Origin: Lachnospiraceae bacterium
GTDB taxonomy: Bacteria > Bacillota > Clostridia > Lachnospirales > Lachnospiraceae
Length of the DNA stretch: 64,000 nt
Assembly (NCBI GenBank): GCA_017469945.1
Contig: JAFUFI010000002.1
Span: forward strand, 62,001 to 126,000
Direction of reading: 5' to 3'
Below, piece after piece: positions 2,722 to 64,000 of this stretch (positions within the stretch are counted from its first letter, which is position 1; each line of letters begins with the position of its first letter). The notes beneath the pieces are model-generated. The model was not told the DNA's origin. It searched no databases and was given only the letters and a program-made list of their open reading frames with translations. A program made the position numbers and the translations under genes.

Positions 2722-3492
2722 ATGGATGATGCTGCAAGAAAGAAACTTTTAGATGAATATTCTAAAAACAAGTCCCCGGAGCTGCGCGAGAAGCTGATCA
2801 TTGAATTTGCACCGCTAGTAAAGCTTGTCGCAGGCAGACTCAGCATGTATCTTGGATATAATGTTGAGTATGAGGACTTATGCAGCTATGGTATTTTTGG
2901 ACTTATTGATGCCATAGATAAATTTGACTTTTTGAAAGAAGTTAAATTTGAAACGTACGCAAGTCTGAGAATCAGAGGTTCTATCCTCGACCAGATACGT
3001 AAGATGGACTGGATACCCAGGACCATCCGTCAAAAACAGAAACAGATAGATGCCGTAATGAAACAGATCGAGCAGGAGAAAGGAAGACCTGCCACGGATA
3101 TTGAGATTGCCCAGGGGCTCGGTATTACCGAGGATGAGTTTTATGACTGGCAGTCCCAGATGAAGATTACGGGTCTTGTATCTTTGGATGAATTTATGGA
3201 GTCGGGAAGTGACGTACCCCAGCAAAACTACGGTGGTACCACGGCCCAGTTTATTTCGCCCGAAGAGAATATAGAAAAGCAGGAATTATACAAAATGCTC
3301 GGGGAAGCGATGCAGCTTCTTACCGAAAAAGAGCAAAAAATCATTGAACTGTACTATTATCAGGAGATGACCTTAAAGGAAATCGCAAACATCCTTGAGG
3401 TTACGGAATCGCGTATTTCCCAGTTGCATACCAGGGCAATCGGAAAGATGCGTTCCAAGCTGGGACCTTATATGGGTATTTTCCAGGCCTGA
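2722..3492 (+). CDS. fliA: RNA polymerase sigma factor for flagellar operons (sigma-28/FliA)
   Basis: This 256-residue alternative sigma factor directs transcription of late flagellar and chemotaxis genes. Region 2 is seen as YNVEYEDLCSYGIFGLIDAI near residues 46-65 with the strongly conserved FETYASLRIRGSILDQIR following. Region 4 near the C-terminus holds the helix-turn-helix TLKEIANILEVTESRISQLH that reads the -35 element. The length is standard for FliA/SigD. It sits after the chemotaxis genes, as in Bacillus and clostridia. Sites resembling its target sequence were found elsewhere in this window (23253, 31734, 61936), so its regulon is partly visible here. Confidence 0.96.
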   Translation: MDDAARKKLLDEYSKNKSPELREKLIIEFAPLVKLVAGRLSMYLGYNVEYEDLCSYGIFGLIDAIDKFDFLKEVKFETYASLRIRGSILDQIRKMDWIPRTIRQKQKQIDAVMKQIEQEKGRPATDIEIAQGLGITEDEFYDWQSQMKITGLVSLDEFMESGSDVPQQNYGGTTAQFISPEENIEKQELYKMLGEAMQLLTEKEQKIIELYYYQEMTLKEIANILEVTESRISQLHTRAIGKMRSKLGPYMGIFQA

Positions 3493-5154: not shown

Positions 5155-5472
5155 ATGGCAGGACTCGATATCGCCCCTATTGTAAGGGCACAGGATTACA
5201 CTTTTATCAAACATAACGAAGATGTTAAGCCCGAAGTTGATCAAAGCCATATCAACATCGCCAGAGAGCAAAAAGAAACGCTTCAAAATAGTGACGTTGT
5301 TAATACTTCGGAAAGTCGCTGGCACTCAGGCCGCCATGATGCAAAGGAAAAAGGATCCAATGAATATCATGGAGACGGCGGAAAAGAAAGAAATAAACAG
5401 CCGGACCACAAAAAGCCCGTAGAGAAGATGGTTGTTAAAGGTACTTCAAGCGGGTTTGACCTTAAAATCTAA
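5155..5472 (+). CDS. Small hydrophilic protein of the flagellar operon, unknown function
   Basis: I do not recognise a family for this 105-residue protein. It has no membrane segment or signal peptide. Residues 1-50 could form short helices (IAPIVRAQDYTFIKHNED, then INIAREQKETLQ); the rest is rich in Lys, Asp, Gly and His and is probably disordered until the last ten residues. The start follows GGAGGAAAGGT, a strong ribosome site, 16 bases after the DUF342 gene, and the next gene begins 19 bases after its stop. It is therefore very likely a real gene translated with its neighbours, and probably flagellar or chemotactic by association. Confidence 0.7.
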   Translation: MAGLDIAPIVRAQDYTFIKHNEDVKPEVDQSHINIAREQKETLQNSDVVNTSESRWHSGRHDAKEKGSNEYHGDGGKERNKQPDHKKPVEKMVVKGTSSGFDLKI

Positions 5473-56104: not shown

Positions 56105-56539
56105 ATGAAGTGGTCCGTCAGAGAGGGCAAACCGGGCGATATGGTCCGGGTAAAAGTTAATAGCAAGATGGACCATTACGGAGTATATGTCAGTGACGAT
56201 GAGGTTATAGCCTTCGGGCTTAATCCCGCGCTCCTTGCAGGAGTCCCCGAGAGTGAGGTAAAGATCTTATCAACCGATATCGACAAGTTCAGAAACGGCG
56301 GATACCCCGAGTTTGCTGACTTGTCCTTTGGAGAAAAGCTTAAGCGCTTTAAGACTGAAAAGATAATCGAAACCGCCAGAGGCCGAATCGGCGAGGGCGG
56401 ATATAACATCGTTTACAATAATTGCGAGCACTTTGCGTATGAATGCATCTTCGGTATGAAGTATTCTTCGCAGACGGAGGCCGCAAAAGAAGCCATAAAG
56501 GAAATGGCTACCGGAAAGAAGACTAACGGAGAGGAATAA
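56105..56539 (+). CDS. LRAT-like (NC domain) acyltransferase/protease-fold protein
   Basis: The 144-residue protein resembles the lecithin-retinol-acyltransferase family. It has the His of KMDHYGVYVSDDEVIAFG (H24) and the catalytic Cys of YNNCEHFAYECI (C107, with H109). The family often has a second His in VIH; here the position is Ala (A36). Family members take an acyl group from a phospholipid onto Cys and pass it on or hydrolyse it. A long C-terminal helix follows (residues 118-140). In this operon it may act on the same lipids as the tandem acyltransferase. It lies 21 bases after the carrier gene. Confidence 0.85.
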   Translation: MKWSVREGKPGDMVRVKVNSKMDHYGVYVSDDEVIAFGLNPALLAGVPESEVKILSTDIDKFRNGGYPEFADLSFGEKLKRFKTEKIIETARGRIGEGGYNIVYNNCEHFAYECIFGMKYSSQTEAAKEAIKEMATGKKTNGEE

Positions 56540-61111: not shown

Positions 61112-61142
61112 CAGCCCTGCTTTTTAGGCAGGGCTGTTTTTT
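61112..61142 (+). terminator. Rho-independent terminator after the acyl operon
   Basis: A perfect nine-pair stem (cagccctgc / gcagggctg) with a seven-base loop is followed by six T residues. Confidence 0.93.
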
Positions 61143-61149
61143 GACGGTA

Positions 61150-61875
61150 TTAAAGCTTTCTTGCTCCGCGGTCTCCACGGAGTATTTTATTTTGGTCGGA
61201 AGGGGAGATCTCTCTGATCATCCCTTTTGAATTGTATGTCGTAAGCATATCTGTATTTCTTGCGGGGAATTTCTTTCCCTCTTCGGAGATAAGGTTTCGG
61301 AAAAGATCCTTGTCCCCATCCTTTAATGCCTTCTTTATATTTTCATCCCTGTTTTTTTCGAGGGCTTCTATATCAGAAGCTGAAGCGGATATTTCGAGGG
61401 ATACTTCGTCTGAAGAAACTCCTGTGAGGGAATTGTCGTTTTTTTGCCCCTGATCCTTTGGCGACATAACCGGCGGGATTTTCTCGAGGCCGTCGGAGAT
61501 CGGTTTACTGTCCCAGAGGTTTCCGAAAATCTTCTTTATATTGTTCCAGATGCTTTCAAAAAAGTCCTTTATATTTTCCCAGAGCATATTGGCGGTAGCC
61601 GTTATCTGGTCGGGAGCTTCTTCTTTATTATCTTTTGAATCTTTTAAGGATGCCTTTCCGAGACTTTCGGCAAAGGAAGGATTCTTTTCGCCTGCGGTAA
61701 CATTTTTTTGCTTTTCATCCGCGGCAGAAGAGGACTCGTAGATAACACCCCCTTGTCCATCCTGCTTATCAAGGGCGGATTTAAGGGAAAACTGCTCACT
61801 GCCCTCCGGGGCATTTACCTTGGAGGACTGGGGCTGATATGCGCTTGGAATGTTGTTATTTACAGGATTTATCAT
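61150..61875 (-). CDS. Unknown hydrophilic protein, probable sigma-28-dependent gene
   Basis: I do not recognise a family for this 241-residue protein. It has no signal peptide and no membrane helix. The first 95 residues are Ser/Gln/Lys/Glu-rich and probably disordered. Residues about 97-125 have an amphipathic, Trp-rich stretch (ANMLWENIKDFFESIWNNIK, then IFGNLWDS). A second helical part (about 170-205, DIEALEKNRDENIKKALKDG) and a basic conserved-looking end (NKILRGDRGARKL) follow. Its promoter is of the sigma-28 type, so it is likely a motility or late flagellar protein, perhaps secreted or a regulator. It is alone on its strand. Confidence 0.78.
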   Translation of the reverse strand: MINPVNNNIPSAYQPQSSKVNAPEGSEQFSLKSALDKQDGQGGVIYESSSAADEKQKNVTAGEKNPSFAESLGKASLKDSKDNKEEAPDQITATANMLWENIKDFFESIWNNIKKIFGNLWDSKPISDGLEKIPPVMSPKDQGQKNDNSLTGVSSDEVSLEISASASDIEALEKNRDENIKKALKDGDKDLFRNLISEEGKKFPARNTDMLTTYNSKGMIREISPSDQNKILRGDRGARKL

Positions 61876-61909
61876 CGTTTTACCGCCTCAAGACCAATAT
61901 ACATTAATG

Positions 61910-61936
61910 ATTTCGGCTAATCAAGAACGAAATTTA
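61910..61936 (-). promoter_or_regulatory. Sigma-28 (FliA)-type promoter
   Basis: On the minus strand TAAA (61936-61933) and GCCGAAAT (61917-61910) are separated by exactly 15 bases. Only one position of the -10 differs from GCCGATAT. Transcription would start near 61903, about 28 bases before the ATG at 61875. This is the best sigma-28 match in the window. Confidence 0.78.
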
Positions 61937-63151: not shown

Positions 63152-64000
63152 ATGAAATTTTCGATAAGAGAGCAGGCTGCGAAAGTACTGAGCAAGAGAA
63201 AAAAGCATAGCATATATGTCCTTTCGGTTTCGATTGCCGCAGTATTTACGGTTGTTGGCGTAGTATATGGACTCACCAGACCCGGACGCGCTTTTTCAAG
63301 TCTTCAAAAGACATTGGAGTGCAACGCGCAGGCACATACCCACACAGCCGAATGCTATGATGCTGAAGGAAATCTTATATGCGGAATGGCGGATTACTTC
63401 GCACACGTACACGATCCCGAGCTTTGCTATGACGAAAACGGCGATCTTGTATGTCCTCTTCCCGAGATCATCCCTCATGAGCATGATGACAGCTGCTACA
63501 TCGAGAGACTTGAGCTTATTTGCGGTATAGAAGAGGGACAGGTTGTAGACAGAAACGGAAATCCCGTTTTTGACGAAGCCGGAAATCCTCTTTTTGACAT
63601 AAATGCTGTTCCGGAAATCGGAAGCATTGAAATTCTGGGAACTGTTGAAGATGTCACCGAAGCCGAGGTAACCGAAGAAACTGATGCAAATCAGGAGGTT
63701 ACCGAGGAGGGTGATAATCTCGAAGCAGCAGGAGAGGCTTCAGAAGAAGCTTCAGAAGAAGCTCCCGCTGCAGACGTTACTGAGGGAACCACCGAAAACG
63801 GTGACAGTAACGCTCCGGCACCCGACGATACTTCCGCCGAGGGAACCCCTGCTGAGGGTGCTCCCGCAGAGGAAACGGGTATAGATGAAACAAACAGTCA
63901 GGAGACTCCTGCAGAGACTACAACTCCCGACATCATCGAAGAGACCGTTGACCTCGGCGGCGCAGGTGCCGATATCGCAGAAGGCGGATACACCACTCAC
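63152..64000 (+). CDS. Large surface protein, N-terminal part (3' end outside window)
   Basis: The frame is open from ATG 63152 to the window end (283 residues). AAGGAGGAAG lies before the ATG. A basic N-terminus and a hydrophobic segment (about residues 22-42, SIYVLSVSIAAVFTVVGVVY) form a signal peptide or anchor. Then come three related units with the pattern H-x-H-x(2-4)-C-Y and a later Cys: HTHTAECYDAEGNLICG, HVHDPELCYDENGDLVCP and HEHDDSCYIERLELICG (about residues 62-127). Such units occur in large Firmicute cell-surface proteins and may bind metal. From about residue 155 the chain is an acidic Glu/Thr/Ala/Pro-rich stalk. The rest, including any sortase motif, is outside the window. Confidence 0.85.
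   Translation, partial: MKFSIREQAAKVLSKRKKHSIYVLSVSIAAVFTVVGVVYGLTRPGRAFSSLQKTLECNAQAHTHTAECYDAEGNLICGMADYFAHVHDPELCYDENGDLVCPLPEIIPHEHDDSCYIERLELICGIEEGQVVDRNGNPVFDEAGNPLFDINAVPEIGSIEILGTVEDVTEAEVTEETDANQEVTEEGDNLEAAGEASEEASEEAPAADVTEGTTENGDSNAPAPDDTSAEGTPAEGAPAEETGIDETNSQETPAETTTPDIIEETVDLGGAGADIAEGGYTTH

Follow-up and report, generated by a model that had tools for sequence, protein, structure and literature searches.

A candidate flagellar accessory protein of Lachnospiraceae with a putative sigma-28 promoter in one clade

FlgM (PF04316), an anti-sigma-28 factor and export substrate, is one of the described proteins that come close to the subject of this study, a 241-residue protein encoded in a 2.62-Mb draft genome of a Lachnospiraceae bacterium. 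Both have a sigma-28 box and a cysteine-free N-terminus of similar sequence flavour, but the 241-residue protein shows no FlgM domain match, is two to three times longer and adds a Trp helix and a C-terminal module; moreover, a canonical flgM gene is located elsewhere in the genome. DUF6033 (PF19498; contig C30 of genome G000) and two DUF5610-like proteins (genomes G079 and G272) are likewise unknown-function proteins of flagellated Lachnospiraceae. According to a simple sigma-28 box score, whose maximum is 11.1, the genes for DUF6033 (10.4) and for the G272 protein (10.1) possess a similar box, whereas the G079 gene reaches only 8.1. The DUF5610-like pair (L160:9516-10181 and L159:9767-10387) contains GVVYEPS in the leader like the 241-residue family but differs in its C-terminal parts, and DUF6033 has neither the C-terminal part nor the leader in common with it. 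The G272 protein matches DUF5610 (PF18433) below the cut-off; no DUF5610 match was obtained in the genome containing the gene studied here, nor in the control genomes. Finally, the tape-measure Trp repeat (PF05017) resembles the protein by an 11-residue W/I/F repeat in one helix. Compared to tape-measure proteins, however, the product has only 241 residues, one short helix and no phage context. As to the promoters, the part of one report considered here describes that SigD promoters of C. difficile tolerate changes in the -10 element, e.g., ACGAAAA before flgK (PMC3865298), and in the part considered of another, two promoters are given for the fibrisolvens flagellin gene (PMC3720852).

The window, i.e., the whole stretch of DNA that was analyzed, comprises 64,000 nucleotides (contig JAFUFI010000002.1, positions 62,001 to 126,000). 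It contains the following features:

2722..3492, plus strand: fliA (sigma-28), after cheW, cheC and cheD genes (by eye), approximately 58 kb from the 241-residue protein gene
61112..61136, plus strand: terminator-like hairpin between the 241-residue protein gene and a convergent hydrolase gene
61150..61875, minus strand: coding sequence of the 241-residue protein (ATG at 61875, stop codon 61152-61150)
61883..61889, minus strand: possible ribosome-binding site GAGGCGG, read from the sequence
61896..61924, minus strand: sigma-A-like site TTGATT-N17-TATATT, which overlaps the sigma-28 box and harbors the sigma-28 -10 element within its spacer
61910..61917, minus strand: putative sigma-28 -10 element GCCGAAAT, identical to the -10 element before mbl of the same genome
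61933..61936, minus strand: putative sigma-28 -35 element TAAA

The names of mbl, fliW, the che genes and the neighboring genes (no family call) were assigned by eye. Flanked by the convergent hydrolase gene and the hairpin on one side and by divergent genes on the other, the gene seems to stand by itself. Terminator-like sites such as this hairpin occurred twice in the stretch, with 1.4 expected from shuffles. The divergent flank consists of a coiled-coil-like gene and a signal peptidase gene, both directed away. Behind the latter, a 1422-residue protein with His/Cys motifs repeated close to the N-terminus begins (63152-64000, continuing in L102). The fliA product of the window exceeds the TIGR02479 cut-off. 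After fliA and a 542-residue protein gene, a 105-residue protein without Pfam match is encoded at 5155-5472; related genes of like size reside at the same place in five relatives.

The whole putative sigma-28 box, TAAATTTCGTTCTTGATTAGCCGAAAT (61936-61910, minus strand), reads TAAA-N15-GCCGAAAT with a spacer of exactly 15 nucleotides. An earlier, sequence-only reading, in which no strand was named, had called this promoter near-perfect, a fair description given one mismatch to CCGATAT in an element that mbl shares. The end of the -10 element lies 34 nt from the ATG. With a start 6-7 nt downstream of it, the leader would thus measure about 28 nt, in agreement with the value given previously. TAAAN14-16GCCGAWAW matched once in the window, while 0.21 matches were expected, and 19 of 100 shuffles contained at least one match, so that the motif by itself does not settle the matter. 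Genome-wide, TAAAN14-16GCCGAWA yielded 22 matches compared to 15 for the backward-read control. Five of the 22 are well placed, which means outside of open reading frames of at least 150 codons and no more than 150 bp from a start with a ribosome-site-like sequence. They precede mbl, fliW, the DUF6033 gene, the gene of a 349-residue orphan protein and the 241-residue protein gene. We consider the motif alone weak evidence for a sigma-28 promoter, whereas its position and company point strongly to one. Two genome matches (L040 and L041) were found directly after an open reading frame read as smpB and may, judged by this position, lie inside the tmRNA gene.

The box of the 241-residue protein gene scored 10.1, the same as mbl, and fliW scored 10.8. 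Among the flagellin genes of the genus, 23 of 29 parsed reached at least 9.4 and the remaining six 6.1-8.0. These 29 go back to 30 loci, one per genome, of which one, a spurious open reading frame in L064, was removed and another, L086, yielded no row; the L057 row is cut by a contig end. All flgM genes that could be parsed (18 of 29 loci) scored 9.0-9.7. In a background of 382 open reading frames, which includes flagellar stretches picked by the analyst, only seven attained a score of at least 10: the 241-residue protein gene twice (the window and its copy L102), its G005 orthologue, fliW, mbl, the DUF6033 gene, and a 103-residue frame without a flagellar look. The 349-residue orphan gene (G000:C5:2297-3346; L157, L034) has a perfect box (11.1) 69 nt upstream of its start; its product lacks a Pfam match and has matches in 17 of the 31 genus genomes. 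On the contig of the DUF6033 gene (G000:C30:97131-98036; L153:7131-8036) there is also a flagellin gene, and the gene of a 964-residue DUF6240 protein (L154:7270-10164) is located immediately upstream of a flagellin gene and has a weak box (8.4). Our literature search on DUF6033 and DUF6240 disclosed no paper.

To what extent the box is conserved was determined by scoring the upstream regions of 38 family members, 27 of the genus and 11 of other genera. Five of them contain a box (9.7-10.8); the other 33 score at most 8.4. All five carriers belong to one clade of six species (support 94/92), the sixth species (G021) being without box, and none of the 32 upstream regions outside this clade revealed a sigma-28 box. 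Upstream of the genes of a sister clade of three, TTTA-N15-TTCGATAT was found, which may represent a decayed sigma-28 box or, alternatively, a sigma-A site. Of the 13 members of a third clade, 12 share an aligned TTGCC-type site together with a -10 element resembling TAAAAT. The TTGATT-N17-TATATT site is not above chance in the window sequence alone, and TTGA..TATATT sites aligned with it exist in L003 and L004. As single sigma-A matches mostly do not exceed chance, only the alignment across species counts. On a fair reading of these data, sigma-28 control would be a property of the six-species clade, perhaps in addition to sigma-A. The suggested sigma-28 control is thereby retained as likely for the gene's own lineage, but finds no support as a general rule.

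The 241-residue protein has matches in 28 of the 31 genus genomes; the three genomes without match (G015, G024 and G030) are 81, 72 and 68% complete, respectively. Two named relatives, L031 (93% identical) and L032 (58% identical), originate from the Lachnospiraceae MAGs RUG13622 and RUI450. Compared to the 93% identical orthologue, dN was 0.030, dS 0.221 and dN/dS 0.14. The protein is real and under purifying selection. Alignment A1 comprised 26 of the 28 positive genomes, leaving out L022 (strand handling) and L025 (a fragment); L022 was added to alignment A2, and L025 was not used further. By profile search, clear members were identified in 11 further genera, which are 19-26% identical to the window protein. 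Its architecture is as follows:

61726..61875, minus strand: predicted unstructured leader, residues 1-50, in the genus with the motifs FS(L/M)..A(L/I) and GV.Y(E/D)
61507..61605, minus strand: amphipathic Trp-rich helix, residues 91-123 (LWENIKDFFESIWNNIKKIFGNLWDS)
61153..61380, minus strand: helical C-terminal module, residues 166-241, ending PARNTDMLTTYN..G.I.EISPSDQNKILRGDRGARKL

Most members start like M[IV].[PRK][VI], and parts of the leader motifs FSL..AL and GV.YE are present in the other genera. The disordered N-terminus and the Trp-rich amphipathic stretch that had been noticed in the sequence were both recovered. AlphaFold predicted no stable structure for the first 60 residues (pLDDT block means 34-53), and the hydrophobic moment amounts to 0.80 at residues 99-116. 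The Trp helix and the C-terminal module are connected by a variable linker. Within the module, A+NS.LLT.YD..G.I...SD...ILHGDR is conserved best; T212, Y214 and G218 do not vary among 24 sequences and represent the best conserved columns across genera. Besides a helix at residues 91-121 and several helices within 166-233, predicted with moderate confidence, the AlphaFold model contains little else (mean pLDDT 54.6 for the whole protein and 66.2 for the C-terminal module alone).

In Pfam and NCBIfam, the window protein passed no cut-off except that of the 11-residue TMP repeat. For 26 members, Pfam gave the TMP repeat in two and PF22422 (E 0.002) and PF02514 (E 0.005) in one each, and the FlgN, FliS and FliT chaperone models of Pfam and NCBIfam were not among the matches listed for family members. 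The best match among solved structures was a Gp14 chain (E 0.041 over 28 columns). As anticipated, no described family fits, and judged by Pfam, NCBIfam, PHROGs and solved structures, not by literature, the family is undescribed. A search of 393 genomes of the class yielded ten matches outside family f1, all of them weak (E 2e-4 or worse) and situated in open reading frames of 473-2660 residues, mostly over the Trp-helix columns.

To study the relation to the flagellum, 250 genomes of the taxonomic family (at least 90% complete, about one per genus) were sampled, 123 of which contain FlhA. Clear members occurred in 13 of the 123 FlhA-positive genomes (G000, G002, G033, G041, G062, G079, G091, G125, G134, G176, G218, G224 and G247) and in none of the 127 FlhA-negative ones. 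A wide occurrence of homologues in non-flagellated species, which according to the earlier reading would have refuted its proposal, was thus not seen in this sample. A 14th match in the FlhA-negative genome G056 covers only columns 84-125 (the Trp helix) of an 801-residue open reading frame; it was not recovered with a wider profile and not counted as a member. Fisher's test, a statistic that ignores phylogeny, gave p = 7e-5 without and 6e-4 with G056. The wider profile produced six more weak matches (E 1.5e-6 to 0.008). When opened, those in G272, G109, G067 and G055 and a second weak match in G079 turned out to be other proteins; the matches in G208 and G192 reside in open reading frames of 1248 and 1113 residues. 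Since only 13 of 123 FlhA-positive genomes have a clear member, the family is not needed for the flagellum. In the genus, FliA exceeded the cut-off in 26 and flagellin in all 31 of the 31 genomes. In the six relatives inspected (G001, G002, G017, G023, G026 and G029) the gene is located next to tsf, 5-7 kb past fliA, and converges on the che-fliA genes; by coordinates G022 shows the same position relative to che-fliA. In the 11 other genera, no flagellar gene was seen within about 10 kb of the family gene (neighbors by eye). A flagellar link of the family is supported.

Against this link it may be argued that the protein is a sigma-28 client outside the flagellum, which is co-expressed with motility but acts in cell separation, surface properties or metabolism. 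There is precedent in C. difficile, where SigD directly controls outside genes such as an iron transporter gene, as stated in the portion of PMC3865298 used here, and the neighbors of the gene in this genome, like those in the 11 other genera, are non-flagellar by eye. A general function, however, would not predict that clear members are confined to FlhA-positive genomes, and we regard this explanation as unlikely. It is very unlikely that the gene is simply a sigma-A gene with a sigma-28-like box arisen by chance. The overlapping TTGATT-N17-TATATT site with its aligned counterparts in L003 and L004, the TTGCC-type site of the other clade and the 0.21 matches expected per window would agree with it. 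On the other hand, five of the six clade species have boxes, three of which differ in sequence and distance, just 4 of 379 background open reading frames score at least 10 after removal of the three rows of the 241-residue protein gene, and the single sigma-A matches are mostly within chance themselves.

Another explanation, quite unlikely in our opinion, is that the protein is a flagellar export substrate which leaves the cell in the manner of FlgM and may act as another secreted regulator or as a surface protein. It is based on the leader: in a shuffle test against the FlgM leader of the genus, the N-terminal 30 residues gave a mean z of 1.87 in 39 rows, which are related and include one protein twice (window and L001), compared to 0.16 in 80 control proteins, and z exceeded 2 in 51% of the family rows and 6% of the controls. 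In other genera, 4 of 11 rows attained p of at most 0.05. A profile comparison (hhalign) of the family leader with FlgM was null, however, and the relatedness of the rows also argues against this explanation, so the FlgM-like leader may be taken as a lead only. The same test yielded p values of 0.90 for DUF6033, 0.59 for DUF6240, and 0.51 for the 105-residue protein encoded behind fliA; the two DUF5610-like proteins gave 0.06 and 0.25, and the 349-residue orphan gave 0.03. The unstructured N-terminus and the lack of cysteine would fit export as well. The 38 members, which together comprise 9,250 residues, are devoid of cysteine, although about 115 were expected at the control rate of 1.25%. 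As a mark of export this proved not diagnostic, since the exported FlgK, FlgL and FliC have two to three cysteines here and 24 of 112 control open reading frames of 150-320 residues have none; FlgN, FliW and CheW have none either. A substitute for FlgM could be ruled out because canonical FlgM exists in 29 of 31 genus genomes. The FlgM domain (PF04316/TIGR03824) was not among the listed matches, one of 26 members giving E 0.085 with TIGR03824. The Trp-rich repeat might also suggest a remnant of a phage tail tape-measure gene, as the Pfam TMP repeat (PF05017) matched the protein above the cut-off (E 0.0011) and PHROGs tape-measure matches went down to 1.3e-4. These matches mainly lie on the helix, no phage record matched, two plasmid records did so over 25 residues only, and the gene is present with one common architecture in 28 of 31 genus genomes, with no phage genes noticed alongside by eye. 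A phage origin was ruled out on these grounds; the remnant explanation is largely contradicted and extremely improbable.

We favor the interpretation that the 241-residue protein is a lineage-specific flagellar accessory protein, which would be under sigma-28 control in one clade, and put its probability at roughly 55%. A mostly unstructured protein behind a sigma-28-type switch, with clear relatives found only in flagellum builders of the same bacterial family, is probably a minor additional part or helper of the flagellum. Of the earlier proposal of a late flagellar component or motility regulator, this much stands: the gene is likely of the late class in its own lineage and flagellum-linked (13 of 13 clear members FlhA-positive). 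Its synthesis would coincide with that of the late flagellar proteins, once the hook is complete and FliA is freed from FlgM. By its unstructured N-terminus and its Trp helix, the protein may dock to the export apparatus, to an export chaperone or to the membrane, and one specific partner may be bound by the conserved helical module at the C-terminus, which has a basic tail. In this way the protein could tune late assembly or filament function, the core machine not being built by it. Other lineages probably produce this protein from a different promoter, which may be of the sigma-A type. A bolder version, a new Lachnospiraceae flagellar family with FlgM-like leader export, a Trp helix linking late assembly to the envelope, and an ancestral other promoter that gave way to sigma-28 control in one clade, is quite improbable as a whole. 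If it were true, sister species would show the rewiring of a flagellar checkpoint directly. As the promoter differs between close relatives, these could be compared for the cost or benefit of tying the gene to the flagellar switch. The immunity of the host is stimulated by flagellins of motile gut Lachnospiraceae, as far as the part of PMC3720852 considered here goes. Several genes of this genome that have good sigma-28 boxes are without known function, and the family is a testable candidate with defined motifs.

Elsewhere in the window, positions 56105-56539 encode a bacterial LRAT-domain protein (PF04970, E 4.3e-18), whose gene is surrounded by acyl-carrier-like, acyltransferase-like and hydrolase genes (neighbors by eye).
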